Notes: generated by a model from the sequence alone, not told the origin. 64,000 bases of DNA from a virus (IMGVR_UViG_3300007640_000004:1-64000), one strand, 5' to 3'; counted from the stretch's first letter, positions 32,504 to 54,553 are shown. Numbers and translations are program-made.

Positions 32504-32539
32504 AAAAAAGTTCGGACCGGTTTTTACACCGGTCCGAAC
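32504..32539 (-). terminator. Rho-independent terminator after the scaffold gene
   Basis: GTTCGGACCGGT (32510-32521) pairs perfectly with ACCGGTCCGAAC (32528-32539). On the minus strand a run of six T follows (32504-32509). It isolates the capsid transcript from the portal-scaffold transcript. Confidence 0.85.
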
Positions 32540-40709: not shown

Positions 40710-40845
40710 TCTAGCTATGAAGGGGGGTGGTTGAAAACCCCCTATAACTCATACTATCTTATAGGATCTGTTCCTATAAGATAGTATGATCTCTAGGGAC
40801 TTTTTACCCCCCCCCCCTTATAAGCAGCAACCTAGTGAATTGGGG
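40710..40845 (+). promoter_or_regulatory. Control region copy 2: promoter-like palindromic repeat
   Basis: TTGAAA (40731-40736), an 18-nt spacer and TATCTT (40755-40760) form a promoter-like pair. The -10-like box lies in a palindrome with 18-bp perfect arms (40749-40766 and 40772-40789, loop TCTGT). Reverse-complemented, the element matches the 7262-7385 copy over about 110 bp, including the downstream CTAGGGACTTTTTACC and AACCTAGT. It faces the 41403 operon. Confidence 0.65.
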
Positions 40846-41003: not shown

Positions 41004-41331
41004 CAGACCCCTATATATGTATACGGGTGCGCGGGGAAAAGTCGACCCCCCTCCCGTGGCGTGGTTACCGGAACCGAGGCCCAGCTATATTGAATGTGGA
41101 ATCCTCATTACTCGTTCATTATCAGGGACTTAGGAGCCTAGATGTGGGGTTCACGGCCTGAAAAGTGAGGGCGTACTATCTAATAGGAGCCTCTGATTCC
41201 GCCTGATTCCTCGATCTTGAATCCCAAACCCAGAGCTAGCCATTGCCTAGCCTGATCGGACTGCCATGCCGCAGCCCTTATGTTTACTGGGATAGAGCGG
41301 GAAGGGTTGTGATAAAGGTGTAACGGGAAAG

Positions 41332-41360
41332 CCCGCTTATCCCGTGACGGGATAAGCGGG
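41332..41360 (+). repeat. Intergenic 13-bp-stem hairpin 1 (CTT type, loop TGA)
   Basis: CCCGCTTATCCCG, loop TGA, CGGGATAAGCGGG. It precedes the first gene of the operon. Confidence 0.9.
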
Positions 41361-41402
41361 TTAACCCAATTAACCAAAAACAAAATAAGAAAGATAACGA
41401 TA

Positions 41403-41981
41403 ATGAATAACGAACAAATCAAAGCCATTGCGGCAATCGTCAAATTCGCTACCGCCGAAGACGCGAAGATCAATAAGCAATACGTCGATCAAGTTGGTGC
41501 AGCGATGAAGGTCGCCGCTATCGCGAAGACTGAACTCGTGACCCACATCGCGACCACGCTGAAAAGCGATACCGCATTCGTGATCGATCCAAATTCGCCG
41601 GACTTGACTCGTCCGAAGGAGGTCACCGTCGACGATTGGAAGTCAATCGTGACTCGTCGCAAGATCGCCAAAAAGCGCGGTGACTTGCTCGTGATCAAAG
41701 CAACCAAGCTGGCCGTGAAAGACGCGGGCATCAAGATCAGCACCTCCGCAGTGAACGTCGCGACCAAAGCGGCTGGGCTGTCTGCCCGTGACCGCGGCAT
41801 GATCTCCGAGATGGGAGTCGACAAGCTGAACCTCGTTTGTGGCAAGTCTAAGAAAAGCACGAAGAGCAAGAAAGGCGGACACACCGTCGAGACTCTTACC
41901 GCTCTCTTGCAGTCCATCGATTACGCTACCGCAAAGGCTGCTATGGAGGCAGCCCACACTTGCAAGGTGACTCGCAAGTAA
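41403..41981 (+). CDS. Basic hypothetical protein, first gene of the hairpin-punctuated operon
   Basis: This 192-residue protein is Lys/Ala-rich and helical with a strongly basic patch (KSKKSTKSKKGG, about 149-160) that could bind nucleic acid. No family is recognised. Its leader is A-rich with AAGAAAGATAA, repeated before other genes here, and it is framed by hairpins at 41332 and 42005. As the first gene of the early operon it may be a DNA-binding regulator or abundant early protein. Confidence 0.55.
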   Translation: MNNEQIKAIAAIVKFATAEDAKINKQYVDQVGAAMKVAAIAKTELVTHIATTLKSDTAFVIDPNSPDLTRPKEVTVDDWKSIVTRRKIAKKRGDLLVIKATKLAVKDAGIKISTSAVNVATKAAGLSARDRGMISEMGVDKLNLVCGKSKKSTKSKKGGHTVETLTALLQSIDYATAKAAMEAAHTCKVTRK

Positions 41982-42004
41982 TCCGACCGACCTGACAGTC
42001 TTAA

Positions 42005-42033
42005 CCCGCTTATCCCGTCACGGGATAAGCGGG
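42005..42033 (+). repeat. Intergenic 13-bp-stem hairpin 2 (CTT type, loop TCA)
   Basis: Same stem as hairpin 1, loop TCA. It starts 23 nt after the stop of the 41403 gene. Confidence 0.9.
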
Positions 42034-42048
42034 TGTCTGCGGACCAGA

Positions 42049-42076
42049 GGACACGGAGGCTCCGGCTTTCGTGTCC
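42049..42076 (+). repeat. Second-type intergenic hairpin (a)
   Basis: GGACACG (42049-42055) pairs with CGTGTCC (42070-42076); the loop contains GGCTCCGGC. It lies directly after hairpin 2 and resembles the hairpin at 42373-42400. Confidence 0.65.
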
Positions 42077-42124
42077 CCTTGTCAGCGGATCAATTCCGAT
42101 CCCTGTAACCCAAATAACAAAATA

Positions 42125-42346
42125 ATGAAACTTGATACCATATCCCGCCTCGACAGCCAGTACCGCGCTGTCCAATCTATCCGGCGTCTACTCCTTGACC
42201 GCTACCCCCGCCACCACGACGAGGTAGACCACCTCCTCAACCACGCCGCGCCAGCAACGCTGGTCTACCAAGGTCGCATGACAATCAAGGAGTACTATCA
42301 CGACACCCGTCAGCAGATGGGTGACGCCTACGACGCCGCCTACTAA
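42125..42346 (+). CDS. Small hypothetical protein
   Basis: This 73-residue protein (start MKLDTISRLD) is helical, His/Tyr/Arg-rich and has no recognised family. The ATG at 42125 follows an A-rich leader. It is bracketed by second-type hairpins before and after. It may be a small nucleic-acid-binding or regulatory protein; nothing in the sequence decides it. Confidence 0.5.
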   Translation: MKLDTISRLDSQYRAVQSIRRLLLDRYPRHHDEVDHLLNHAAPATLVYQGRMTIKEYYHDTRQQMGDAYDAAY

Positions 42347-42372
42347 TATCCCATCGTCGTCTCTTGATCAGG

Positions 42373-42400
42373 GGACGCGACGGCTCCGGCCATCGTGTCC
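42373..42400 (+). repeat. Second-type intergenic hairpin (b)
   Basis: GGACGCGA (42373-42380) pairs with TCGTGTCC (42393-42400, one G-T pair), loop CGGCTCCGGCCA. Outer GATCA (42366-42370) and TGATC (42411-42415) extend the stem. Confidence 0.65.
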
Positions 42401-42451
42401 TCTCGTCAGGTGATCCAACTAACAGAGTGATCCTGTAAACCAAAAACAAAA

Positions 42452-42706
42452 ATGAAAGTAAACAAGAATACCCATCGCAACGTTACCGCCCCTGTCCTCG
42501 ACCTGATCGGCGAGCCTCTGAGTTCGGACGCTCACGCCGCTCCCGTCGTCAAGCTGGAGGCCGATGAGTTCCTCCGCTTCAAGCTCCAGTCGGACGCGGA
42601 CCACCGTGCCGCTCGTGCCGCTCGTGCTGCCAAGGCACGGCGCGAGGCTCTGATCGGGAAGACGCCGCTCGCCTCCGTGTTCTCCGCCCTCGTGGTGGAA
42701 GACTAA
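42452..42706 (+). CDS. Small hypothetical protein
   Basis: This 84-residue protein has a basic Ala/Arg-rich central helix (HRAARAARAAKARRE, about 51-65) between acidic segments. No family is recognised. It follows an AACCAAAAACAAAA leader and is followed by hairpin 3 after 15 nt. The basic helix could contact RNA or DNA. Confidence 0.5.
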   Translation: MKVNKNTHRNVTAPVLDLIGEPLSSDAHAAPVVKLEADEFLRFKLQSDADHRAARAARAAKARREALIGKTPLASVFSALVVED

Positions 42707-42721
42707 TCCCAACCCGATCGA

Positions 42722-42750
42722 CCCGACTATCCCGCGACGGGATAGTCGGG
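42722..42750 (+). repeat. Intergenic 13-bp-stem hairpin 3 (ACT type, loop CGA)
   Basis: CCCGACTATCCCG, loop CGA, CGGGATAGTCGGG. Relative to hairpin 1, CTT changes to ACT and the partner AAG to AGT, so pairing is kept. Confidence 0.9.
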
Positions 42751-42779
42751 CATCATACCCTGAACCCTGAAAGAAAGTA

Positions 42780-43040
42780 ATGAGATCCTATAACGCAAGA
42801 ACCGTAGCCGAGCTTCAAGATGCTCGCGTCTCCAAGCTCGATGCCTTCGATGGCTTCGAAGAAACCTTCGACTGTGCCCTTCCACAAGCGTGGCTCGATG
42901 CCTTCGTCGAGAAATCCAAGCTCGACTATCACCTCGTGTGGTCCACCACGGTCTGGTCCTATGGTCAGGCTACCGTATGGGGGGAGCCCGTCACCTGCTG
43001 CGCCGACGTCGCTGCCTTCGCTGCCTACGATACCAACTGA
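42780..43040 (+). CDS. Small hypothetical protein
   Basis: This 86-residue acidic, aromatic protein (VWSTTVWSYGQATVWGEP) has no recognised family and no membrane segment. It lies between hairpins 3 and 4, with an A-rich leader. The gene order and punctuation suggest independent control of its mRNA segment. Confidence 0.5.
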   Translation: MRSYNARTVAELQDARVSKLDAFDGFEETFDCALPQAWLDAFVEKSKLDYHLVWSTTVWSYGQATVWGEPVTCCADVAAFAAYDTN

Positions 43041-43056
43041 ACCCTGAACCAATCGA

Positions 43057-43085
43057 CCCGACTATCCCGCGACGGGATAGTCGGG
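43057..43085 (+). repeat. Intergenic 13-bp-stem hairpin 4 (ACT type, loop CGA)
   Basis: Identical stem and loop to hairpin 3; begins 16 nt after the stop of the 42780 gene. Confidence 0.9.
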
Positions 43086-43118
43086 CATCCTGTTAAACCA
43101 ATAACGAATAATCCTATT

Positions 43119-43868
43119 ATGAATAAGCGCTACATCGCCATAACATATCAACGGGCCGACGCCCCCTACCATCCGGAGCAAACATCCTGCGCCCACTTCT
43201 CCACACCCGAAGGGGCGGCTCTCCACCTCTGGTCTGCTCACCACCGTGACCTGTGGGTCCGCCAACGTGGTGGCGGCGACGGATCATACATCTCCTACCC
43301 CATCGACGACGTCGACATGCTCGTTGACCACATCACCGACGGGTATGACATCCTCGTGGATTTGGGTGAACCCAGCCTGACCCTCGACGTTGTGACCTTC
43401 CATCGCGCCCTCACCTATGTTGATGAGCCCGAGCCCACCCATCCGAGCGGGGCTGTTGGCTATGGCGTGACCGACGGGCACACCCTTCGAGTCAACCCGC
43501 CGACCGATCCACTCGATCGACTCGATTGGGCGAAGACGTTGCGTGACTGGTGTGGTTGCGATGAGCGGCCTGACTCACCCGTTAACGAGATCACGGATGA
43601 GAGTGTTACTGAGATGCTGCGCGGACCCTTCCGCCCTCCATATTATATCCGGACCGTCGAAGCCAAAAAGGCTTGGCGTGACCAAGACGAGGTCGGACAG
43701 CTCCCCGTTCATGTGATGAAGCTCGACCGTTTCTTGTTCTGCGGCGAAGGATACCGCGAAGAGAACTCGGTGCCAATGATCGTCGGGCAGTTCGATGTCT
43801 ACGAACCCATCGAAGGATGCTCGACTCACACCCGCAACACAATCTACACGCCAGCACGGCACGACTGA
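43119..43868 (+). CDS. Hypothetical protein ending in IYTPARHD
   Basis: This 249-residue protein is acidic and mixed alpha/beta, with a His/Trp-rich N-terminal part (AHFSTPEGAALHLWSAHHRD). No family is recognised. Its last residues IYTPARHD closely match the end of the next gene's product (IYLPSRHD), hinting at a shared terminal module. One base separates it from that gene, so translation is probably coupled. Confidence 0.5.
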   Translation: MNKRYIAITYQRADAPYHPEQTSCAHFSTPEGAALHLWSAHHRDLWVRQRGGGDGSYISYPIDDVDMLVDHITDGYDILVDLGEPSLTLDVVTFHRALTYVDEPEPTHPSGAVGYGVTDGHTLRVNPPTDPLDRLDWAKTLRDWCGCDERPDSPVNEITDESVTEMLRGPFRPPYYIRTVEAKKAWRDQDEVGQLPVHVMKLDRFLFCGEGYREENSVPMIVGQFDVYEPIEGCSTHTRNTIYTPARHD

Positions 43869-43869
43869 T

Positions 43870-44040
43870 ATGGTATTCAAGAACTCACCCCTAGTAGTGA
43901 AGGACTACATCGATCCGGCGACGGGTCGAGTGTGGCTCCGCACCCTTTACCGGAATCTCAAATCCACCGAGACGATTAACGTCGGAGGTAAGGACAGGTT
44001 CCGGAGGCGCGTCATCTACCTGCCATCACGGCACGACTAA
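43870..44040 (+). CDS. Small protein sharing the C-terminus of its neighbour
   Basis: This 56-residue protein (start MVFKNSPLVVKD) is basic and beta-rich. It ends RRVIYLPSRHD, resembling the end of the upstream protein, and the DNA at the two 3' ends is almost the same (CACGGCACGACT). It may be a truncated partial duplicate that kept the terminal module. Hairpin 5 follows after 22 nt. Confidence 0.45.
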   Translation: MVFKNSPLVVKDYIDPATGRVWLRTLYRNLKSTETINVGGKDRFRRRVIYLPSRHD

Positions 44041-44062
44041 TCCTTAACTCAATTACCTGTGA

Positions 44063-44091
44063 CCCGCTTATCCCGTGACGGGATAAGCGGG
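44063..44091 (+). repeat. Intergenic 13-bp-stem hairpin 5 (CTT type, loop TGA)
   Basis: Identical to hairpin 1. It precedes a 160-nt leader of the MoxR-like gene. Confidence 0.9.
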
Positions 44092-44105
44092 CAACATAAA
44101 ACAAT

Positions 44106-44135
44106 TTGACTCAACCCGCTGATGGGTTTTATGTT
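44106..44135 (+). promoter_or_regulatory. Possible promoter for the MoxR-like gene
   Basis: TTGACT (44106-44111), an 18-nt spacer and TATGTT (44130-44135) lie 115 nt upstream of the ATG at 44251. The match is moderate. Confidence 0.4.
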
Positions 44136-44250
44136 TAACGCATCAAGCCCAACGGTGGGAGCCGAGTCCCCATAAGGAAAGTCCTCCTTCATTGAACGGA
44201 CAAACAAAACAAACTGCTGAAAAGCAAAACCTAAAACGAATAAAAATAAT

Positions 44251-45459
44251 ATGAGTAACCAATCCAATACCCAGTTCCCCGTCGTCAGTATCGGCCAAGT
44301 GCCCCTCCACGCTGTCGTCGCTGAACACACTGGCTCCATGTTGTCGCTCAACGGCAAGAGCGGAGTCGGCAAGACAGAGATCGGAAAGAAAATTGCCGAG
44401 GCTATCGGCTACGAGTTCGATCCTAAACTCCATGTCAAAAACTTCTGCGGAGCTAGCCCCGTCGAAGGGACAGGCTACGGCGTGCCCGGCGAGTGGGACG
44501 ATGATCTCGGCTCCGACATCGACATGAGGTTCAGCGTCCCCGAAGGACTGCCAACCTTGGCAAAGTATGGCGATCGAAAGATCGTCTTCATGTGTGACGA
44601 GTTCAGCAACTGGGACCCAACGCTCCAGTCCCTTGCGCTTGGAGCCATGACTCCGGTCGGCTTCCCTAAGAAGTGGGGGCCGCACGACATCGCACCCAAC
44701 GTGTTCTTTGTCCTGACCTCCAACCGGAGATCAGACGGGAGCCGACAGTCGTCGGTGTTGTCAGCACCCAACGTGGCTCGATGCCTTACCTTGGTTATCG
44801 AACCTAACCTTAAGGAAACGTTGGAACACTTTGCCGTCGACAAGGATCTGTCCGACTCGGCTCATTGGAAATTCCTTTCCTTTGTTCAGCTTGGCAATGT
44901 GAACGGCAACACCACGGGAGCCTTGGACGCTGAGAAGCTGTTCGCTCCGGACCCCGTGACACCGTGGGACGGGATGCCTTATCCCAACCCGCGACAGCAC
45001 GAGCGGGTCTGCATGGCTACCATGCCTGACTCGCCTCTGATGGACGATACGCTGTTCAACCACGAGGCACGCAAGACAAACCTGTCCGGCTACCTCGGAC
45101 CTGATGCGGGGGCGGAGGTCGCCTCATGGATTGCAGTCATGGCAGACTCTGTTGAGAATGCCAAGGCTGTGCTGGCTGGCGCGGCTTCGTTCCCGAAGGA
45201 TACCAAGTCCATCTACGGGACAATGATGGCAGCGTATCGTCTCACCAAGATGATGCTGTCCGGCATGACCCAAGCCCAACGGCTGGCGGCAGTCAAAGGC
45301 GGCGACGTCGATGACTTCGTGAACCGCATCATGCTGGTTCCGGAAGCCAAGGAGTATTGCGCATGGCTCTACGAAATGGCGATCCGCGAAGACAAGGACA
45401 AGAACAGCGCCATCCCGCTGGATGTCCACCCAATGGCCGAGAAGATGCAGTGCGTCTGA
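44251..45459 (+). CDS. MoxR-type AAA+ ATPase
   Basis: This 402-residue protein has Walker A GKSGVGKT (residues 36-43), Walker B IVFMCDEF (about 111-118) and a sensor-1 region VFFVLTSNRR (about 151-160), the order seen in MoxR/RavA-like ATPases. These act as chaperones that load or remodel metal-dependent or VWA-containing partners. The VWA-metallopeptidase gene two positions downstream is the expected partner. It has its own possible promoter and is bracketed by hairpins 5 and 6. Confidence 0.8.
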   Translation: MSNQSNTQFPVVSIGQVPLHAVVAEHTGSMLSLNGKSGVGKTEIGKKIAEAIGYEFDPKLHVKNFCGASPVEGTGYGVPGEWDDDLGSDIDMRFSVPEGLPTLAKYGDRKIVFMCDEFSNWDPTLQSLALGAMTPVGFPKKWGPHDIAPNVFFVLTSNRRSDGSRQSSVLSAPNVARCLTLVIEPNLKETLEHFAVDKDLSDSAHWKFLSFVQLGNVNGNTTGALDAEKLFAPDPVTPWDGMPYPNPRQHERVCMATMPDSPLMDDTLFNHEARKTNLSGYLGPDAGAEVASWIAVMADSVENAKAVLAGAASFPKDTKSIYGTMMAAYRLTKMMLSGMTQAQRLAAVKGGDVDDFVNRIMLVPEAKEYCAWLYEMAIREDKDKNSAIPLDVHPMAEKMQCV

Positions 45460-45472
45460 TTAGCCAACCCTG

Positions 45473-45501
45473 CCCGACTATCCCGCGACGGGATAGTCGG
45501 G
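45473..45501 (+). repeat. Intergenic 13-bp-stem hairpin 6 (ACT type, loop CGA)
   Basis: Identical to hairpins 3 and 4; begins 13 nt after the MoxR-like stop codon. A CTTCTTAACC tail follows. Confidence 0.9.
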
Positions 45502-45536
45502 CTTCTTAACCTAACTAATAGAAAGACAGATAACGA

Positions 45537-46442
45537 ATGACAACGAATAATAACACCCACGGCGGTATCGACTTGATCAACAGCCTAGTTCAGGCGGCGC
45601 TGGAGACGCACAAGTATCCGCTCCATCAGAAACTCCAGCAGGTCAGCGAAGATGCTGCTGCCAAGTATCAAACGACGGCGGCGGAGATCCGCTCGATGAC
45701 CACCATAATCGAGAACAAAGGCAATGAGGTCGGTGCCATGGGGGCACGGATCGAACTGTGGAGGACGGCGACCAAGGATCTCGGGCTCCCCAACCCGACG
45801 GTGAAGGGCTCCCTGTATATCCAACGCAAGGATATCAAGGAGGTGCAGCAACTCTTCGACGACTGCGAGGCTGACCTCGTGGCGATGAAGAAGAACGTGG
45901 TCAAGGCATGGCCCGCCCTTGTGCAGGAGGCGAAGACTCGCAAGGCCAAGCTCGCTCAATTCATCGAGTGGCCGTCGGCTAACGAGTTCGTCTCCAAGTA
46001 TTCCATCGGGCTCCGGTGGATGGCCCAGCCAATGGCGATCCCCGAAGGTGTCCTGTCCGGTCTGTCTGCCGAGGTGCGTGCGGAGGCCGAGGCGAAGTCC
46101 AATGCCTACGTTAACGCAAACCTACGTCAGGCACATTACGGTCCGGTCAAGGACTTGGTCGGTAGCATCACCAAGCTGGTCGAGGACTGGGATAAGGGTA
46201 AGAAGCGTGTGAGACAGGAACCTTACGACGCGTTGAAGGAGGCGGCCAAAAAGCTGGACGACCTGAACTGGCTCCGGCTCCCTGAGCTGGCCGCCTTGTC
46301 TGATGTCCTCGACAACGCGGGTAACATCGACATGGTCAACACCCCGAAGGATGAGCGCGACAAAGCGTTCGACAAAGTCCGGACGGCGAAGCAGAAGATG
46401 GAAGACGCCATCGCGAAACAGAATGCCGCTCTCGGCATCTGA
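45537..46442 (+). CDS. Coiled-coil protein of the MoxR-VWA module
   Basis: This 301-residue protein is almost all helical with long heptad-like stretches (about 20-80 and 190-300) and no catalytic motif. It lies between the MoxR-like ATPase and the VWA-metallopeptidase. I infer it to be an adaptor or substrate of the ATPase complex. No family is recognised. It starts with MTTNNNTHGGIDL after an A-rich leader. Confidence 0.5.
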   Translation: MTTNNNTHGGIDLINSLVQAALETHKYPLHQKLQQVSEDAAAKYQTTAAEIRSMTTIIENKGNEVGAMGARIELWRTATKDLGLPNPTVKGSLYIQRKDIKEVQQLFDDCEADLVAMKKNVVKAWPALVQEAKTRKAKLAQFIEWPSANEFVSKYSIGLRWMAQPMAIPEGVLSGLSAEVRAEAEAKSNAYVNANLRQAHYGPVKDLVGSITKLVEDWDKGKKRVRQEPYDALKEAAKKLDDLNWLRLPELAALSDVLDNAGNIDMVNTPKDERDKAFDKVRTAKQKMEDAIAKQNAALGI

Positions 46443-46454
46443 TTAAACTGATCG

Positions 46455-46483
46455 CCCGACTATCCCGCCACGGGATAGTCGGG
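46455..46483 (+). repeat. Intergenic 13-bp-stem hairpin 7 (ACT type, loop CCA)
   Basis: Same stem as hairpin 3, loop CCA; begins 12 nt after the stop of the 45537 gene and is followed by CTTTCTTAACC. Confidence 0.9.
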
Positions 46484-46522
46484 CTTTCTTAACCCAACGA
46501 ACAAAAGAAAAAGTAAAACATA

Positions 46523-48136
46523 ATGAGAACAAGAACCCAACTGCCCACTACGGGCAACACCCTTGAAGCGAAGGCCATGCGGCGCGTCGAACAATGGGTA
46601 AGCTCCGCATACATCAGGCTGATTAGCTTGGTGTGCTACCTGACTGACGAAACACCATACGGTGCGACCGACGGTCGACTGCTCCTGCTCAACCCAGCGG
46701 GCATCATGAAGATCAAGGCAACGTCTGACCCTGTCGGATACCTCGCCTTCCTCCTGCTGCACGAGGCGCTGCACGCCATGCTCAACCACGGCATCAGACT
46801 GATGGGCTTCCGCGATCGGAAGCTGGCTAACATAGCCGCAGACTATGTGATCAACGCGATCATCATCAAGATCAATGAGGATGCGCGGAAAGCCGGAGCC
46901 ACGGCTGACCCGTTCCCCATGATTAATGGCGGGCTCTACGATCCTGACCTGTCAGGAGACAAGTCAGTCGAGATGCTCTACCGTAAGTTGCTTGCGGATG
47001 AGGCGGCTAAGCCACAGCTTCCCGACCCTCCCGTCAACCAAGACGGTGGGGATGATGACGACAGCGACAGCGGCGACAGCGACAGCGGCGACAGCGACAG
47101 CGGCGACATGGGAGACAACCCTGATGGGTGGGACTTCGATGACGACGAGGACGGCGAGGACGGCGATGAGGGCTCCGGCTCCGGTGGCTCCAGTCCGGAC
47201 AAGTCCAACGACGACGACACCGACAGCGGCGACGAGCGTGGTGACGGCAAGGGCGGAGGCAAGGGCGATGAGTCCGACGATGCCGAAGGCGGCGACTCCG
47301 ACGGCGGTCAGCACAACCCTGATCCGGAGAACGGCGACGGGCAGAAGCGTGTCCAGTCTGATGATGACGATGCGAAGAAAGATGCCGAGACTCTCGGTGG
47401 CTTCGCGGGAACCGGTGACGACGACGGTGTCTTTACACCGGAGTTGGATGAGGGCGAGACGATGGACGATGTTGCCAACACCATCGACGATGAGGTTCAG
47501 CGCATCGCTCTTGAAGAGGAGATCAACGAGCGGGCTGGGGCTACCATGGGTGGGCCTGACAAGGGCATCGCCGGTATCATGAAACACCGTAAGCGAGCTA
47601 ACATCGGCGACTGGAAACAGGCAGTGCAGGACTGGTTCACCAGTCGGCAGAACGCCGGATGGACTAAGCCGTTCAACGCTCCGGTCTTCGGCTCGACTCG
47701 ACTCGTGGTGGCAGGGCGTGAGTCCCGTGGCATGGGCCCGATCGTGATCCTGTTCGATGTCAGCTACTCCGTGCCCACTGCCAAGGTGGCGGAGATGCTG
47801 GGCGAGTCGCAGTTCGCATTGGATGAGTTCAAGCCGAAGTCCCTGCACCTGATCGAGATTCCCAACTTTGTCCGCAGGGTGTGGGAGTTGCGCGAGGGTG
47901 ACGTTGTTCCCGAGGAACTGAACTACGGTGGAGGCACCGCATTCGGGCCGGGATTTGACTGGGTCTACGAGAACGTCCCCGACTGCGAGGGCGTTATCTA
48001 CATGACCGATGGTGACGCTTGGGACATCCATGACCTGAAGCAGCCGGACTTCCCTGTCCTGTGGCTTGACTGGTCCTGCTGTCCTGAGAAGTATCCATGG
48101 GGTGAGGTGGTCGTGATGGCTGACCTCGACGCCTGA
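46523..48136 (+). CDS. VWA-like metallopeptidase (DUF2201 type)
   Basis: This 537-residue protein has three parts. Residues about 1-130 include HEALHAMLNH (80-89), an HExxH zinc site extended by a further His, typical of DUF2201 metallopeptidase domains. Residues about 170-300 are an Asp/Ser/Gly-rich acidic linker with DNA tandem repeats. The C-terminal 170 residues are a VWA-like domain with a MIDAS start LFDVSYS (D412) and GGGTAFGPGFDW and YMTDGD later. It should work with the MoxR-like ATPase. Cellular target is unknown. Confidence 0.8.
   Translation: MRTRTQLPTTGNTLEAKAMRRVEQWVSSAYIRLISLVCYLTDETPYGATDGRLLLLNPAGIMKIKATSDPVGYLAFLLLHEALHAMLNHGIRLMGFRDRKLANIAADYVINAIIIKINEDARKAGATADPFPMINGGLYDPDLSGDKSVEMLYRKLLADEAAKPQLPDPPVNQDGGDDDDSDSGDSDSGDSDSGDMGDNPDGWDFDDDEDGEDGDEGSGSGGSSPDKSNDDDTDSGDERGDGKGGGKGDESDDAEGGDSDGGQHNPDPENGDGQKRVQSDDDDAKKDAETLGGFAGTGDDDGVFTPELDEGETMDDVANTIDDEVQRIALEEEINERAGATMGGPDKGIAGIMKHRKRANIGDWKQAVQDWFTSRQNAGWTKPFNAPVFGSTRLVVAGRESRGMGPIVILFDVSYSVPTAKVAEMLGESQFALDEFKPKSLHLIEIPNFVRRVWELREGDVVPEELNYGGGTAFGPGFDWVYENVPDCEGVIYMTDGDAWDIHDLKQPDFPVLWLDWSCCPEKYPWGEVVVMADLDA
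47061..47105 (+). repeat. 15-bp tandem repeat in the VWA gene
   Basis: Three copies of ACAGCGACAGCGGCG encode the DSGDS acidic linker. Length change here would not shift the frame. Confidence 0.85.
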
Positions 48137-48140
48137 TCCT

Positions 48141-48201
48141 CTGACCGGTGGGCGGGGCGGGTGTGGCTGAACAAGCCGCACCTTCCCTGCCTCCCCGTCA
48201 G
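48141..48201 (+). repeat. Long imperfect intergenic hairpin
   Basis: CTGACCGG (48141-48148) and CCCCGTCAG (48193-48201) form an outer stem; GGTGTGGCT (48160-48168) and AGCCGCACC (48174-48182) form an inner stem with one G-T pair, loop GAACA. It replaces the 13-bp-stem type after the VWA gene. Confidence 0.6.
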
Positions 48202-48263
48202 GAGATACCCTTCGCCCTTGAGGTGGAGGAACCTGAGTAAAGAAAGTAAACCAAATAACTGAT

Positions 48264-49100
48264 ATGAAAGATAAAACTACTGCTACTGCTACGAACACAC
48301 CAACCATGGTGATCACCGTCGTCCCTCCGAAGCCCCGCAAGAAAGGCGAGAAGGCCAAGGCCAAACCCCTCGACCGTCTCGTGCCAGTCACGAGCCGATT
48401 GATCGACGGCATCATGGACTACGGAACGAGCGTCTACTTGGCTATCCAAGAACGGCACGTTGAAGCATGGGCCAAGACTGATGGCCCGCCTGCCTACGCA
48501 GGCGACTTGGCTTACGTGAGAATCCGTGAGGCAATCGAGGAGGTAATCCGCACCAAGGTCAGCGACACCACGCTGGCTCGACGCTTCAGCCGGAAACTCA
48601 AAACAACATACAACGGGGGGGTGAGGAGACAGGTCGCCCTGTGGTTCATGACCGACAAACAGATCAAGAAGATCGAGGACAAAGCCGAAGCGGACTTCGC
48701 CAAGTCGAAGTTCGGCAAGCTGCGGGAGGAGGCACAGGCTCCGTTCTATTATGAGCGGTGGAGTTCGGACGTTGTAACGGAGGCACGCATCGCGAAACTC
48801 ATAACAAAAAACGCGAAATACAATGCACAGATAGCCCCGCACCCCTTCATCAATAACACCACCACGGAGGCATCGATCAGGGAACGGGCACGCAAGATCA
48901 ACAACAGCCTGATCCACAAACTGCGGGCCAGTCTCTATGCGTTGGAGGACGGATCGAAAGTCCGGAAGTCTGAGATCGAAGCGAGCTTCATCGATGTCGC
49001 GGAGGCTACGGTCAAGCGGATCATGGGTAAGGACTACGTGGCTCCGACGGAGTCGCAGGTCTACCCGACCCTGACCAATGGCCGGACGCGCCGCCGTTAA
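48264..49100 (+). CDS. Hypothetical helical protein
   Basis: This 278-residue protein is basic and helical, with Arg/Lys-rich segments at both ends (KPRKKGEKAKAKP near 24-36). No family is recognised. It lies between the VWA gene and hairpin 8 in the same operon. The basic ends suggest nucleic-acid contact, but no motif supports a particular function. Confidence 0.5.
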   Translation: MKDKTTATATNTPTMVITVVPPKPRKKGEKAKAKPLDRLVPVTSRLIDGIMDYGTSVYLAIQERHVEAWAKTDGPPAYAGDLAYVRIREAIEEVIRTKVSDTTLARRFSRKLKTTYNGGVRRQVALWFMTDKQIKKIEDKAEADFAKSKFGKLREEAQAPFYYERWSSDVVTEARIAKLITKNAKYNAQIAPHPFINNTTTEASIRERARKINNSLIHKLRASLYALEDGSKVRKSEIEASFIDVAEATVKRIMGKDYVAPTESQVYPTLTNGRTRRR

Positions 49101-49112
49101 TCCAACCCTTAG

Positions 49113-49141
49113 CCCGCTTATCCCGCGACGGGATAAGCGGG
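49113..49141 (+). repeat. Intergenic 13-bp-stem hairpin 8 (CTT type, loop CGA)
   Basis: CTT-type stem with loop CGA; begins 12 nt after the stop of the 48264 gene. It is the last copy found. Confidence 0.9.
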
Positions 49142-49169
49142 CTTTCTTAACCTGTAACAAAACCACATC

Positions 49170-49352
49170 ATGAAAAAATTCACTGTAGAAATAATCGAAA
49201 CCCTGACAAGGAGTGTCCATGTCACCGTGAAAGCGCCGAACGAAGAGTCCGCTCGCGACCTTGCGGAGGGGGGAGACTACGAGGACGAGCAGATCGACCC
49301 TCTTTCCGAGGAGATTATAGATCGGACCATATGGGAAATATCTGCCGACTGA
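49170..49352 (+). CDS. DpnD/PcfM-like small protein
   Basis: This 60-residue acidic protein (MKKFTVEIIETLTRSVHVTV) resembles the small DpnD/PcfM-like family found in phages and mobile elements, a short beta-alpha-beta protein of unknown role. The match covers the N-terminal half best. It lies after the last 13-bp-stem hairpin; genes from here on are separated only by short A-rich leaders. Confidence 0.6.
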   Translation: MKKFTVEIIETLTRSVHVTVKAPNEESARDLAEGGDYEDEQIDPLSEEIIDRTIWEISAD

Positions 49353-49387
49353 AGAAGAACCCCTGAACCCTGAACCCTAACTAACAA

Positions 49388-49621
49388 ATGAGTAACACAG
49401 ATACCACTGTATCCCTCCGCCCCTTTGTCTGGCACTACTTGCCGCACCCATGGGAAGGAACGCAGCATTGCCTCCGCCGCCACGACACCCTTGGCAAAGG
49501 CACTTGCACCAATGATCACACCGGCTGCATATATAATGACGGGCACAACGGATGCACTGCGCCATCCAAGCTGCCTATCGAGGGAGACTTTGACTCCCCA
49601 CTGAAGAAGAAGAACCCATGA
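49388..49621 (+). CDS. Small Cys/His-rich hypothetical protein
   Basis: This 77-residue protein has a Cys/His cluster (CLRRHDTLGKGTC and TGCIYNDGHNGC, about 23-57) that may bind zinc. No family is recognised. Its stop overlaps the ATG of the next small gene (ATGA), so they are translated together. Confidence 0.5.
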   Translation: MSNTDTTVSLRPFVWHYLPHPWEGTQHCLRRHDTLGKGTCTNDHTGCIYNDGHNGCTAPSKLPIEGDFDSPLKKKNP

Positions 49622-49710
49622 ACCCTATGGACCCATCATCCACATCGTTAATCATCGCGCTGGTCTGTTCCATCGCGGCCTACCTAACCCTACCTAACCC
49701 TACTAACTGA
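49618..49710 (+). CDS. Very small membrane peptide
   Basis: A 30-residue frame (MNPMDPSSTSL) starts at an ATG overlapping the previous stop and contains one hydrophobic stretch (LIIALVCSIAAYLTL). The overlap and hydrophobic pattern support it; its size makes it uncertain. It may be a membrane-active peptide. The CCTAACCCTA repeats at its end are probably coincidental. Confidence 0.4.
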   Translation: MNPMDPSSTSLIIALVCSIAAYLTLPNPTN

Positions 49711-49713
49711 ACT

Positions 49714-50145
49714 ATGAATCCAAGACATAACAAACCAACGAGTTCCAACGTGGACTACGCCGACATACCCGAGAAGGGCAACTGCTTTCCGGCAGCCTTT
49801 CATCTGGCCGAGGAACACATCCGCAGTTGCCCCGACATCGAGCCGCTCCTGCGGATCGTCCATGCCGAGGTGGACTGCCAGCATCGGGAGGACGTTCCCG
49901 CTCATGGCCATGCCTACGTCACCATCGAGCACCCGCACTTGGACCCGAGGTTCCCGAAGCTGGCAACCGCGCATGACAGTTCGCTGGGGCGCGAGATCGT
50001 CATGCCCCTCCAAGTCTACGAGGACATCGGCAACATCGGAGAGATCAACAACAAGCACGTATACACCTACGAAGAGGTGCTTAAGAATCTGTTGAAGCAT
50101 GGACATTACGGGCCGTGGGATCTCGAAACCTCAACCGGATTGTAG
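49714..50145 (+). CDS. Small protein with papain-like Cys-His arrangement
   Basis: This 143-residue protein has GNCFPAAFHLA (Cys at residue 24) and later GHAYVTIEHPHLDP (His at about 66), the order of a papain-fold Cys-His pair seen in small phage proteins that begin with a GNC motif. A following Tyr/Asp-rich region could complete the site. I infer a cysteine-peptidase-like or transglutaminase-like fold, without proof of activity. The start has no Shine-Dalgarno sequence. Confidence 0.45.
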   Translation: MNPRHNKPTSSNVDYADIPEKGNCFPAAFHLAEEHIRSCPDIEPLLRIVHAEVDCQHREDVPAHGHAYVTIEHPHLDPRFPKLATAHDSSLGREIVMPLQVYEDIGNIGEINNKHVYTYEEVLKNLLKHGHYGPWDLETSTGL

Positions 50146-50149
50146 AGCC

Positions 50150-50344
50150 ATGACCAAAGATACCTTCCGCCTCCGGCGCGTCGGAGAATACAAAGGCTAC
50201 GCGATCCATCGCGGCTACTGCACAACCCACGGAATCGGCAGCACCTTCTGGTGCTGTGGAACCTGCGGCTACCGAACCTTCGCCGGACGCGGAGGCGTTA
50301 AGTCACACATCACCAAGTTCCATAAGGGACACCAAACCAGATAA
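50150..50344 (+). CDS. Small C2H2 zinc-finger protein
   Basis: I start at the ATG at 50150 (MTKDTFRLRRVG) because the longer frame upstream overlaps the previous gene. The 64-residue protein contains CGTCGYRTFAGRGGVKSHIT followed by KFH, a CxxC...HxxxxH pattern (C-x2-C-x12-H-x4-H) like a classical C2H2 finger. It is basic and likely binds DNA or RNA, perhaps as an early regulator. Confidence 0.6.
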   Translation: MTKDTFRLRRVGEYKGYAIHRGYCTTHGIGSTFWCCGTCGYRTFAGRGGVKSHITKFHKGHQTR

Positions 50345-50385
50345 CCAAACCAGATAACCAAACCAAACCTAACCCAATAAAGAAA

Positions 50386-50724
50386 ATGAATAACCTCAAA
50401 GAAACCACTGACATCATCATCACCCGCATGACACCTGAACACCGAGCCCGAGTCCTTGAGGCACTGCCCAAGATTGAGGACATGACTGGTCAGAACGAAC
50501 ACACCGATGCCATCCTGATGGGTATCCCCCTGTTGGAAATGGAGGATAAGAAACGCGAGGCCCGCATGGTCGACGAACTGTTGGCGATACGGACCGAGGT
50601 CGACAGGAAATACCTGACCCCTGAACTGATGAAGCAACGCACGGATATCTATCGGACGATGATGGACTTCGCCGAACTGCGCTTCGACACTGATGTCTTC
50701 CGCGAGTTCCACAACTGCTACTAA
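50386..50724 (+). CDS. Small helical hypothetical protein
   Basis: This 112-residue helical protein (MNNLKETTDIIITR) has no recognised family. It is acidic with a Met-rich core and no membrane segment. It follows a short leader with repeated AACCAAACC and is separated from the next gene by about 110 nt containing a possible promoter (TTGACT near 50784). Confidence 0.5.
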   Translation: MNNLKETTDIIITRMTPEHRARVLEALPKIEDMTGQNEHTDAILMGIPLLEMEDKKREARMVDELLAIRTEVDRKYLTPELMKQRTDIYRTMMDFAELRFDTDVFREFHNCY

Positions 50725-50783
50725 CCTGCTAACCTACTAACCTGATTACCCATATAAGAGATAAGAAATAAACATAAAACTAA

Positions 50784-50811
50784 TTGTTGACTAAACCATA
50801 TAGAAAGATAA
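50784..50811 (+). promoter_or_regulatory. Possible promoter before the 50835 gene
   Basis: TTGACT (50784-50789), a 16-nt spacer and TAAAAC (50806-50811) lie upstream of the ATG at 50835 in an AT-rich stretch. The match is moderate. Confidence 0.35.
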
Positions 50812-50834
50812 AACTAAACCACCTAATAAAAACC

Positions 50835-51509
50835 ATGAGTAAAGACCCTGAAGTAATCAAGACAGTAAGAGGATGGACCGACCGTAACGCCGAGTCCTTC
50901 CCCTATCTCAGCATCGCCTACAAGCAACCAGACCAACTGATCCGCGAGTTCCTATGCGGCGGCGAATATGAGCCTGACATCCTGTCGGCGCTCGACTTGT
51001 TCCCCCACCTCCAACCATCCGTGGATGACAACGCCATCTTCCTTGAAGAGATGAGCGCGGCATTGGTCCCGTTCCATTACCTGAACCGTCCGCCTTGTCG
51101 CGGAACGATTGGTGAGGCACGGGGAATGATGCCCATTAAACCCATGATCGGTTGGGACGTTATCATCGGGGACGACGAGCAGGAGGCTGCGGTCTACGGA
51201 TCGCTGACCGACGCTTGCGTATTCTTGAAGCACCTTGAACTGGATTGGGAGCTACGCGGCACACTGGAGTATCACGCCGAGTCGACGCAATGCCCCGACT
51301 GTCATGGCTGCGGCACCGATATCTTCGATGACACGAAGAGGTGCAAGAAATGTAACGGGCTCAAGTATCAGTCTCGTCCTCTGATCCTGTTGCTGATGTT
51401 CAAGTCGATCACCTCCGGAACCCCGCTGACTTTCGAGGAAGCGTTGGAGGCTTACAACTCCGAAGTCCTCAAACCTGAAACGAAACCCATTCGTGTAGAA
51501 GTCAAGTAA
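50835..51509 (+). CDS. Hypothetical protein with DnaJ-like zinc knuckle
   Basis: Starting at MSKDPEVIKTV, this 224-residue protein has CPDCHGCGTDIF and CKKCNG (about 155-180), two paired Cys motifs resembling a DnaJ-type zinc knuckle. The N-terminal 140 residues are helical and acidic. No family is recognised. The zinc site suggests protein or nucleic-acid binding. I preferred this ATG over an upstream TTG that overlaps a promoter-like box. Confidence 0.5.
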   Translation: MSKDPEVIKTVRGWTDRNAESFPYLSIAYKQPDQLIREFLCGGEYEPDILSALDLFPHLQPSVDDNAIFLEEMSAALVPFHYLNRPPCRGTIGEARGMMPIKPMIGWDVIIGDDEQEAAVYGSLTDACVFLKHLELDWELRGTLEYHAESTQCPDCHGCGTDIFDDTKRCKKCNGLKYQSRPLILLLMFKSITSGTPLTFEEALEAYNSEVLKPETKPIRVEVK

Positions 51510-51553
51510 CCCCTCCCCACCCTAACCTAACCACCCATAAGAAAGATAATACC

Positions 51554-51934
51554 ATGAGCATACGTCGAGTAATCAAGTCAAACCCCCACGAAATTTCGAC
51601 CGTCTACCCCTGCGGCCTCGACTTCAGGAGGAGCATCGTTGCCCTGTGGGATGTTGACCACGGGCCTTCGATCCTCGACCGGCGCGTCACGGATCGAAGG
51701 GCAGGGAACGAATACGGATTCCGAAGCGCATTGACCCCCGCCAATAGCGAGGGTGCGGGCTGGCAATATAGCGCGTGCTCCCCGACCCAAGCTGTGACAG
51801 ATGCCCTAGCAGACGGATGGGATGTCTTCGAGTTCGACACCTTGCTTGACCTGATCCTATGGATGCGGGACGAGCGCGTACTAGGCGAGCCGACAAAATC
51901 AAAACCAAAATCAGAACCCGAATCCCAAGAGTAA
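51554..51934 (+). CDS. Small hypothetical protein
   Basis: This 126-residue protein (MSIRRVIKSNPHE) has a mixed alpha/beta body and a Lys/Pro/Glu-rich disordered tail. Its leader CCCATAAGAAAGATAATACC matches those of the next two genes. No family is recognised. Confidence 0.5.
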   Translation: MSIRRVIKSNPHEISTVYPCGLDFRRSIVALWDVDHGPSILDRRVTDRRAGNEYGFRSALTPANSEGAGWQYSACSPTQAVTDALADGWDVFEFDTLLDLILWMRDERVLGEPTKSKPKSEPESQE

Positions 51935-51962
51935 ACCACCAACCCATAAGAAAGATAACATC

Positions 51963-52355
51963 ATGCCAAACCTACCCATGACCGAACTACAAGAAGCCCG
52001 CATCACATTCCGCCAAGCCAACGCGTTCCTCCGCGAAACCCGCGAAGGATTGTTCAGGCGGAAGTCAGCCACGATGATCCAGACGCTGCGGAAGATTCGC
52101 TCCGACAAAGGTAAACGCCGTGCGCTCCGAGCCATGGCCCGAGCCCTGATCGATGAGGGATACTACTCAGGCTCGTCCGCTATCGGACAGATCGAGTTCT
52201 CACTTATCAAGAGGCTGTGGAAACATTACCTCGCTAACCACGGCTACATGAAGTGGGAGTCCTTCGCAAGGAGGCACGCCGGAGCGTCATGGTATGCAGG
52301 GGAGCCCTTCCCTCAGCCCGCCGGAACCGAGATCCAAGGAACCTTGAACCTCTAA
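51963..52355 (+). CDS. Small basic hypothetical protein
   Basis: This 130-residue protein is Arg/Lys-rich and helical (KIRSDKGKRRALRAMARA near 42-60) with an aromatic C-terminus. It might bind RNA or DNA. Its leader is nearly identical to that of the preceding gene. No family is recognised. Confidence 0.5.
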   Translation: MPNLPMTELQEARITFRQANAFLRETREGLFRRKSATMIQTLRKIRSDKGKRRALRAMARALIDEGYYSGSSAIGQIEFSLIKRLWKHYLANHGYMKWESFARRHAGASWYAGEPFPQPAGTEIQGTLNL

Positions 52356-52387
52356 ACCCACCCACCCGTAAGAAAGATAATAACACC

Positions 52388-52861
52388 ATGGACAAAGAAC
52401 TATTCACCATGCCCGCTATCGGCGAGCGAATCCGAACCCAAAATAACAGGGGCACGGCAGACCCCGTATTCTGTATCCAAGTGCTGGAGCGTATCGGGCC
52501 TATCGATCCGGAGCATTCGGATGGCTCTGTGTATTTCTACGACCAAGAAATGTGCGAGCTATACTATGAAGATGGCCACGACCCTGATGAATGGAAGAGA
52601 CTGAACGTCCTCTACTGCAACGATTACCTTGGCGACCCAAGCCTCCCCGACCATATCGTTGTCTCAGGATACAAGGAGAAGTGGATCACGATCCAAACCT
52701 GTTTCACCGAAGTCGGTTGCCAAGCCTACCTCGAACTGAACGGGCACAACCTGCGTCACTATTTCGGACACCGCATCTACGTCGACCATTCGGGACGCAA
52801 CGTGGAAATGAATGCGATCCGCGAATACCTCCGGAGCCTACCCAGCCCCGACAATAGCTAA
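52388..52861 (+). CDS. Small hypothetical protein
   Basis: I start at the ATG at 52388 (MDKELFTMPAIGE), which follows the conserved CCCGTAAGAAAGATAATAAC leader; a longer upstream frame runs through the previous gene. The 157 residues are acidic, aromatic and rich in Asp/His/Tyr. No family is recognised. Confidence 0.5.
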   Translation: MDKELFTMPAIGERIRTQNNRGTADPVFCIQVLERIGPIDPEHSDGSVYFYDQEMCELYYEDGHDPDEWKRLNVLYCNDYLGDPSLPDHIVVSGYKEKWITIQTCFTEVGCQAYLELNGHNLRHYFGHRIYVDHSGRNVEMNAIREYLRSLPSPDNS

Positions 52862-52875
52862 CCCATCCACCCGTA

Positions 52876-53886
52876 ATGGAATTAAAGATACCCGATACCC
52901 GATACGTCCGCGCCAAGGACTTCGATGGTGAACTTCGCTACGTCATCACCGCATCCCGTCGACGCGAACTCGACGAGGTGACTGATGATATCCGCACGGA
53001 CTTTGCCGCCGCCCACCCCGACTTGCCGGAACTCCACATCCCCCCGATATCCTTGATATCGTTCGCCGGTCGCGTGACTCAGGCATTGAAGGGTTGCCCC
53101 GCAAAACTCATGCACAGCGTGAGGGCTCAGTCGGTTGGGTATTTTGGAGACGGTTCGATGGGGCGGTCTAATGGGCTTATCTCCGTGACGCGTATCCAGC
53201 GTATCAAAGGCAGTTGGTATCTGACCAAGTATGAAATCTACACCCGCGCCGAATGGATGAAGGCGCACCGGAAGAAAGATGGGATCAAGATACACGGGAA
53301 CGGAACAGTTCAGTTCAGGCAATCAGGTGGCGTGACCATATCCAGAAGGGAGTCGATTGTGGTTCCGATATCGGTGCCGCCCCACATAGGGCTGCGCCGG
53401 TTGACGGACAAGAACATCTTCATCATCACCCCAAGGGACCACCCGACCAAGGGTAGCAAGACGATCAGTAAGACACTTAAGAAGTCTGCGGCCATGGCAC
53501 AAGCGGATCGGGAACGTCTCGACTGGTTGGAGAAGAACATGATCGCCATGGCAAAGGACCATTCGTCTCCGCACAGCCCGCACCGAGTTGCCATCCTCGC
53601 CAATCCGGCGGGCAGCGACAAGGTAAGGGACCGGACGATACGGGGAGTGATCGACAAAGCCATGGCCGAGTCGCCCGCACCACCCAAGAAATCCCACGAG
53701 TCCATGGGCATGATCGTCGCGGACCTGAAACCTTCCGCCGATGTCTGCCGTCAGTGGCTCGTGACTCGTGGCGTCTTCGTCACGGACGAGGAAGCCGCGT
53801 GGTTGATCTTGGAATATGATGCGGACACCAGCGACCGTCAGCGCATTAAAGACCTTATTGATAAGGAAGATAAGAAAGAAAAGTAA
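52876..53886 (+). CDS. Basic hypothetical protein with helical C-terminus
   Basis: This 336-residue protein has a mixed fold in the first 220 residues (RSNGLISVTRIQRIKGSWYL near 98-117) and a charged helical C-terminus ending KEDKKEK. No family is recognised. The mainly basic surface would suit nucleic-acid binding. It is the last long gene before the plus-strand terminator. Confidence 0.5.
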   Translation: MELKIPDTRYVRAKDFDGELRYVITASRRRELDEVTDDIRTDFAAAHPDLPELHIPPISLISFAGRVTQALKGCPAKLMHSVRAQSVGYFGDGSMGRSNGLISVTRIQRIKGSWYLTKYEIYTRAEWMKAHRKKDGIKIHGNGTVQFRQSGGVTISRRESIVVPISVPPHIGLRRLTDKNIFIITPRDHPTKGSKTISKTLKKSAAMAQADRERLDWLEKNMIAMAKDHSSPHSPHRVAILANPAGSDKVRDRTIRGVIDKAMAESPAPPKKSHESMGMIVADLKPSADVCRQWLVTRGVFVTDEEAAWLILEYDADTSDRQRIKDLIDKEDKKEK

Positions 53887-53895
53887 AACAAAACA

Positions 53896-53923
53896 TTGAC
53901 TCACATTAGAAACCTAGTATTAT
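53896..53923 (+). promoter_or_regulatory. Sigma70-like promoter giving a leaderless start
   Basis: TTGACT (53896-53901), a 16-nt spacer and TATTAT (53918-53923) are followed by 6 nt and the ATG at 53930. Confidence 0.65.
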
Positions 53924-53929
53924 AAAGCC

Positions 53930-54076
53930 ATGAAGATAAGCAATAAAGCAGTTCCCCATGTCCACGGACAAACCAAAGCCGACGCAATGAAAGGCGTCAG
54001 TTCCCTCCTCAAGGTCATCTTGTTATCCTGCCTCGGCGGGTTGCTCGGTGCCCTCCTCCTCACCTCCTTCCAGTAG
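53930..54076 (+). CDS. Small membrane protein
   Basis: This 48-residue protein (start MKISNKAVPHVHG) has a cytoplasmic-type polar N-terminus and a hydrophobic C-terminal helix (LLKVILLSCLGGLLGALLL). It starts 6 nt after a strong promoter -10 box, which supports it. It could be a small inner-membrane effector, for example against superinfection, or a pinholin-like peptide; its distance from the lysis cassette argues against the latter. Confidence 0.5.
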   Translation: MKISNKAVPHVHGQTKADAMKGVSSLLKVILLSCLGGLLGALLLTSFQ

Positions 54077-54105
54077 CAGTAACAAACCAAACCCATTAAC
54101 TAATA

Positions 54106-54477
54106 ATGAACTCAATCCACAGAGACTTCAAACCCAGCGCCGACATCCTCGACCCGACCAAAGGGATCACGGAAACCATGGTAATTAACGGTGAAGTCGT
54201 AAAGATAAAGACCCGAATCGAATATGAATTTGGCGCGAATGACGGGCACTATGCCACGATCGTCTTCGCCCCGCTGACGTCAGTCCGGATCAGCCACGCC
54301 GACAACGAGAAACAACGGAGCGCCTTATGTCATGCAGTAGTAGTCCAGTTAGTGGACCCAGCGGTTTATGGGAACCGTGACTCGGTGGGCGCAGAGATTG
54401 CGCTCGACAGGAAAATCCTCTACCAGATCAGCGCCTTGGCCGAAATGGTTAACCCGAACAACGCATCATCCAGCTAA
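54106..54477 (+). CDS. Small hypothetical protein, last plus-strand gene
   Basis: This 123-residue protein (MNSIHRDFKPSAD) is beta-rich with no recognised family. It lies just before the operon terminator at 54519-54553. A short leader with no Shine-Dalgarno precedes it. Confidence 0.5.
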   Translation: MNSIHRDFKPSADILDPTKGITETMVINGEVVKIKTRIEYEFGANDGHYATIVFAPLTSVRISHADNEKQRSALCHAVVVQLVDPAVYGNRDSVGAEIALDRKILYQISALAEMVNPNNASSS

Positions 54478-54518
54478 CGGAATATAATTTCCCCCCGACA
54501 AGGGCGCGTTGCCGCAGG

Positions 54519-54553
54519 AGCCCCATCGAGTTCGCTACTCGGTGGGGCTTTTT
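54519..54553 (+). terminator. Rho-independent terminator of the early operon
   Basis: AGCCCCATCGAG (54519-54530) pairs with CTCGGTGGGGCT (54538-54549), 12 bp with one G-T pair, loop TTCGCTA, then a T run to 54553. It shares CCCCATCG, CGGTGGGG and TTTTTCG with the terminator at 16718-16748. Confidence 0.85.

Follow-up and report, generated by a model that had tools for sequence, protein, structure and literature searches.

The phage sequence IMGVR_UViG_3300007640_000004:1-64000, referred to below as the window (64,000 nt), carries an operon on its + strand (41403-54478) whose first half is punctuated by palindromes at its gene ends, and many relatives in the same phage family have gene-end hairpins in the corresponding operon, with core sequences particular to their lineages. 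Judged from sequence comparison, we see about an even chance that these hairpins are RNA punctuation marks of a polycistronic phage transcript, acting in 3′-end definition or processing. We favour a role in RNA because they sit at stop codons, their outer stems vary yet stay complementary, G-U pairs are in modest excess, unrelated hairpins occupy the remaining gene boundaries and one of these, type B, has a UNCG-type loop.

The element that defines the pattern in the window, here called type A, matches CCCGNNTATCCCGNNNCGGGATANNCGGG exactly at eight places (Table 1), against an expectation of 0 from 100 shuffles, and the full 64,750-base IMG/VR record holds no further match. A first-pass annotation had described eight copies of a 29-nt palindrome with a 13-bp stem and a 3-nt loop, which is what we find, with the stem reaching 14-15 bp in several copies. 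Both of the stem versions that it reported are present, CT/AG and AC/GT in four copies each, as are all four loops: CGA (n=4), TGA (n=2), TCA (n=1) and CCA (n=1). Its statement that every copy starts 12-23 nt after a stop codon holds for seven of the eight and fails for copy 1, which lies in the operon leader with no preceding stop and with the ATG of the first gene 42 nt downstream. Copy 1 may be an inverted copy, because, read in reverse, it has the same CGGGCTTTC flank as copies 7 and 8.

Structure is present at the other boundaries of this half of the operon as well. Defining a wide boundary as an intergenic gap of >25 nt, we find strong structure at every one of the nine in 41403-49170 (z -3.3 to -7.1), since unrelated strong hairpins occupy the two that have no type A: seven boundaries carry type A, 42346/42452 carries type B only and 48136/48264 carries type C. 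The loop of type B, C(UCCG)G, is a UNCG-type tetraloop, a class that is specially stable in RNA. No hairpin lies at the abutting gene pair 43868/43870.

Stems of the strength seen in the window (13-15 bp, -24 to -29 kcal/mol) could also be those of leaky intrinsic terminators or pause sites, whose partial stops would set up a stepwise expression gradient along the operon, perhaps under antitermination. The terminator-like tail of copy 7 (TTTCTT), the TTTT that ends the copies of one relative (L249) and the attenuator-like position of the first copy in the leader would all suit such a role. The tails in general do not: they average 2.3 T in 8 positions, and a count of at least five is reached by just 3 of the 53 copies (1 of the 8 window copies), whereas the same phages use U-tract terminators elsewhere, at 32510 (minus strand) and 54520-54553 in the window and at 34174 in the relative G001. 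Compared with intrinsic terminators as a class, the stem-loop is GC-rich in the window but not in an AT-rich clade of relatives, where the core is too weak (-4.7 kcal/mol), and the U-tract after the stem is mostly lacking; moreover, termination needs no constant core. Partial termination is therefore an unlikely explanation. Sigma70-like promoters are few in these operons, and this scarcity, together with the rarity of U-tracts, suggests that the polymerase usually reads through.

A search for the exact window pattern in IMG/VR and in the genomes of 84,980 species of bacteria and archaea gave no match. Relatives were also missed when VWA or TerL served as a single query, and the DUF3150-like alignment offered no stretch of sufficient conservation to search with; family alignments (PolA, VWA) recovered them. 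They constitute one phage family, with PolA ~50% identical, whose contigs have in common a terminase, helicase, exonuclease, polymerase, primase-like protein and several large structural-region proteins. The cassette of ATPase, DUF3150-like and VWA genes recurs among them; the small accessory genes do not. Table 1 lists part of the hairpin cores, and more were seen. The core is nearly invariant within each genome, and cores group by clade on the VWA tree (16 changes versus 19.4 in shuffles, with 0 of 200 as low), some contigs rated as having none in the first screen in fact holding the clade core below the copy threshold. The cores of the window and of G030 look homologous (CTTATCCCG versus CTTATTCCG). 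The repeats of G026 and G041 were rejected as boundary hairpins: they lie away from the operon boundaries and look like repeats inside coding sequence.

The first-pass annotation had suggested searching related phages for the palindrome and testing for covariation, and had named failure to maintain the stems in homologues as one result that would count against it. In the relatives, gene-end hairpins are kept: their sequences have changed and their outer stems pair. Outer stems of at least 3 pairs occur in 62 of 148 copies, differing by copy yet pairing. In the G044 alignment, 91.1% of positions expected to pair do so, five pairs are changed on both sides and the covariation score is 0.223 (0.123 shuffled); the corresponding values are 98.0%, three pairs and 0.197 (0.096 shuffled) for the window alignment, and 97.5%, four pairs and 0.355 (0.141 shuffled) for the cores of the window and G030 combined. 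The scores of these three alignments (A4, A6, A7) were matched by 0 of 500 shuffles, and slid controls scored far lower, although copies within one genome are related and the changes are not independent events. For the window alone, covariation comes down to one linked two-pair change and a basal pair, which is thin evidence. Among isolated non-Watson-Crick pairs on the sense strand, G-U outnumbers A-C by 26 to 12 (p 0.03, with copies that are not independent), a modest excess such as RNA, but not duplex DNA, would be expected to show.

These data also bear on whether the sites act as DNA. The cores come close to perfect palindromes around a centre of one to six bases, as might be expected of operators for a lineage-specific dimeric repressor. 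In a layout like that of mycobacteriophage stoperators, this repressor would halt elongation or keep the operon silent, and the potential to form hairpins would be a by-product of symmetry. Two clades with little or no outer stem, the mixed loop orientation in L225, its reversal in the leader copy of L236 and the perhaps inverted copy 1 of the window are in keeping with such operators. Outer arms that are variable yet complementary would, however, be purposeless for a fixed DNA site, and the sense-strand G-U bias, the tight link to the stop codons of one operon and the unrelated hairpins that stand in for the core at two boundaries make DNA operators quite unlikely. The first-pass preference for an RNA hairpin over a protein site is partly supported by the gene-end hairpins with paired outer stems in relatives, but symmetry alone is also compatible with a dimer-bound DNA site.

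Hairpin positions were surveyed for 148 copies from 20 contigs. In 105 of these the hairpin falls between -20 and +40 nt relative to a stop codon, where random placement predicts 16.1, and the median distance is 7 nt. Seven copies are located within an open reading frame; in G020 and G049, the stop codon is part of the hairpin. Some distances in this survey are wrong because its gene calls are heuristic (longest open reading frames), as for window copy 5 (194 nt by script versus 22 nt by hand); the window distances given above were checked by hand.

The core is kept while adjoining accessory genes are replaced between relatives, and 90 of 212 ends of homology blocks between close relatives fall <=30 nt from a hairpin (20.3 expected), often exactly at its edge. 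One account of this pattern is that the hairpins are joints for gene-cassette exchange, at which homologous or template-switch recombination between repeats swaps accessory genes, a cassette being a gene with its hairpin; recombination would itself keep the symmetry, given that template switching at quasi-palindromes can extend and perfect their arms. The enrichment is nevertheless to be expected anyway if each gene end keeps its hairpin, because the BLAST blocks then include it, and stop codons are similarly enriched at block ends (85 of 212, 23.3 expected). With no recombinase tied to the sites, the repeats limited to one operon, and stop placement and sense-strand G-U bias unexplained, we regard exchange joints as improbable.

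Returning to RNA punctuation, the core is near-constant in a genome while the outer stems vary and pair, which suggests that the tip is read and the base is stabilising. RNA polymerase would read through the hairpins, and each would fold in the wake of the terminating ribosome. If the A/C-rich spacer downstream is then cleaved, the products would be gene-sized mRNAs with a 3′ hairpin that slows 3′-to-5′ decay. The constant core may be bound or cut by an RNase or RNA-binding protein of phage or host whose specificity drifts between lineages. As hairpins are absent at the close-abutting genes 43868/43870 and from the second operon half, the genes there would be expressed as joined segments. More tentatively, and at rather long odds, each gene unit of this modular operon might close with a hairpin particular to its lineage, recognised by an RNA-binding protein or endoribonuclease that the phage encodes, that co-evolves with the hairpin and that cuts or marks the mRNA into gene-sized pieces, the uniform joint permitting accessory-gene swaps without loss of expression control.

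Several observations weigh against RNA punctuation. First, template switching could match the arms without selection, and covariation is for this reason weaker evidence here than in ordinary RNA families. Second, in the AT-rich clade (TTAACAACTGAGTTGTTAA) the weak core lacks an outer stem in most copies, and the elements of the GTCAAGA...TCTTGAC clade are short palindromes with little outer stem; the short palindromes of both clades are weak as exonuclease barriers. Third, the loop orientations of L225 and of the L236 leader copy equally suit a symmetric DNA site for a dimeric protein. Fourth, comparison of hairpin-bearing with hairpin-lacking relatives found no gene that tracks hairpin presence: the hunt gave only the ATPase, DUF3150-like and VWA cassette, and the VWA gene, present in the tabulated hairpin-bearing relatives, is also in the hairpin-less G043.

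Some close relatives, such as L233, have no hairpins. L232 and L233 are 93% identical across the ATPase-VWA cassette and carry different accessory genes immediately before it. Only one of the two has hairpins, so that they form a natural pair with and without these elements. In G043 (L184, L212, L243), likewise without hairpins, promoter-like sites of the type TTGACA-17-TATACT occur at 7 of 22 gaps of the same operon, which suggests an alternative way to separate genes. Promoters in place of hairpins did not hold up as a general rule: only G043 (L243) is rich in promoter-like sites, and each of the others has between none and three, whether or not it bears hairpins. In G044, a second hairpin family, GGCTGGCCCCTTGCCTGATAAAAGGGGCAACC, replaces the first downstream of the VWA gene (L186 reverse strand, reverse coordinates 10063, 11463 and 12681); it shows a compensatory C-G to G-C change, and its loop could pair upstream as a pseudoknot.

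Intergenic phage hairpins are already known. In the early and late mRNA of T7, RNase III sites form hairpins between genes, dividing the transcript and leaving hairpins at the 3′ ends, and the present elements likewise lie between genes of what would be one polycistronic transcript. Those of T7 are longer, few in number and contain internal loops, whereas here a 13-15 bp stem carries a triloop and is shorter than typical RNase III substrates; further, the core here is a lineage-specific repeat directly at stop codons. T4 has stable UUCG-type intercistronic hairpins, which type B resembles in having a UNCG loop between phage genes; type A and the hairpins of relatives are lineage-specific repeats with other loops. 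Cluster A mycobacteriophages also have many short repeats in the intergenic gaps of one phage genome, the stoperators. These are asymmetric DNA sites to which the repressor binds, but the sites described here are palindromic, have complementary extensions and are confined to one operon. Arrays of integron attC sites similarly place a hairpin-forming, lineage-specific site 3′ of each unit among same-strand genes with high turnover. In attC, the outer boxes are conserved and the tip is variable, the reverse of the constant tip and variable outer stem seen here; a scan of proteins, which was not exhaustive, found no integron integrase. Nor are the elements dispersed over a bacterial genome like repetitive extragenic palindromic sequences or bacterial interspersed mosaic elements (REP/BIME), being found in one operon of the record and without a match among the bacterial and archaeal species searched.

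The nearest described layout found is that of the extended start-associated sequences (ESAS) of Cluster K mycobacteriophages, imperfect 17-bp inverted repeats with a variable spacer that occur at translation starts with a 13-bp motif (PMC3203893). Like the hairpins here, ESAS are inverted repeats that recur across the non-structural genome half, with a consensus that differs by subcluster (PMC3203893). Unlike ESAS, the hairpins described here go with stop codons and carry outer stems that vary yet pair, and the 13-bp start-associated motif GGGATAGGAGCCC is absent from the operon spacers inspected in the window. No Rfam family reached its gathering score in the window, and none came within E=1 in 41250-49300; no described equivalent of the hairpin pattern was found in the literature searched, with most subscription journals outside the reach of that search. 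What appears to be undescribed is a private gene-end hairpin core, found family-wide in one operon, changed from clade to clade and kept while genes are replaced. If a phage factor does recognise the core, each lineage would provide a naturally occurring pair of RNA and recognising factor, and with it a way to test the segmentation of polycistronic phage messages; if the role is only structural, the family would be a large natural experiment in mRNA 3′-end definition.

Table 1. Hairpins, genes and operon segments of the window, and hairpin cores of relatives
Feature	Position	Strand	Description
Type A copy 1	41332-41360	+	CT/AG stem, loop TGA; operon leader
Type A copy 2	42005-42033	+	CT/AG, loop TCA; 23 nt past stop at 41981
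Type A copy 3	42722-42750	+	AC/GT, loop CGA
Type A copy 4	43057-43085	+	AC/GT, loop CGA
Type A copy 5	44063-44091	+	CT/AG, loop TGA; more structure downstream
Type A copy 6	45473-45501	+	AC/GT, loop CGA
Type A copy 7	46455-46483	+	AC/GT, loop CCA; tail TTTCTTAA; most terminator-like copy
Type A copy 8	49113-49141	+	CT/AG, loop CGA
Type B copy 1	42035-42091	+	UCCG tetraloop, C-G closing pair; same boundary as type A copy 2
Type B copy 2	42359-42415	+	UCCG tetraloop; sole hairpin of its boundary; z -3.3
Type C	48137-48205	+	Long stem-loop unrelated to type A; fills its boundary; z -4.0
Hairpin-punctuated operon half	41403-49100	+	Ten genes; small basic proteins encoded at 41403 and 48264
MoxR-like ATPase	44251-45459	+	phrog_1297
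DUF3150-like protein	45537-46442	+	Punctuated operon half
VWA/metallopeptidase DUF2201 protein	46523-48136	+	Punctuated operon half
Hairpin-free operon half	49352-54478	+	Boundary z -0.7 to +1.7; A/C-rich unstructured spacers
Terminator-like hairpin	54520-54553	+	Operon end, then TTTTT; unlike intergenic hairpins; read from sequence
Core TTATTCCG..CGGAATAA			G030, L245, L263
Core GGACTACGGTAGTTC			G001
Core CATACTACGGTAGTATG			L250
Core GGTATAACCRACTATACC			G044
Core TTAACAACTGAGTTGTTAA (AT-rich clade)			G020, L229, L247, L262 and others
Core GAGTTAGC..GCTAACTC			G049
Core CTTARTGCGTCCGCAYTAAG			L236
Core GTCAAGA...TCTTGAC			L237, L246, L249, L261, L225
Core CACTAGTGC..GCACTAGTG			L251, L242, L253, L241

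The record is that of a tailed phage, with a PolA-type polymerase, an exonuclease, a helicase, a weak primase match, and terminase and tail-fibre matches. Downstream of type A copy 5, a promoter-like site, TTGACT-18-TATGTT, lies at 44106. Leaders before start codons in the second operon half (49353-54107), as in the spacers of G001 (L191), are G-poor and often consist of short tandem units (CCTGAAT, CCCTGAA, TAACC); in the window leaders and in G001, a recurrent AAGAAAGATAA stands right before the ATG, replacing a clear Shine-Dalgarno sequence.

The product of 46523-48136, beside the MoxR-like ATPase, matches the Pfam VWA-like DUF2201 and putative metallopeptidase domains. Its PHROG family, phrog_1314, is labelled HNH endonuclease, as are Vibrio phage records (for example, OZ196439.1); given the domain matches, this label looks wrong.

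On the minus strand, 54563-63889 encodes a 3108-residue virion protein with a zinc-metallopeptidase-like motif, HEFLHAF, and relatives across the phage family. Because of this giant protein, promoter hairpins for an N4-type virion RNA polymerase were considered; they were dropped, as no polymerase motif was visible by eye and the hairpins lie at gene ends. Finally, an AT-rich perfect inverted repeat of 18 bp with a 5-nt loop lies at 40749-40789, where the minus-strand genes and the operon diverge.

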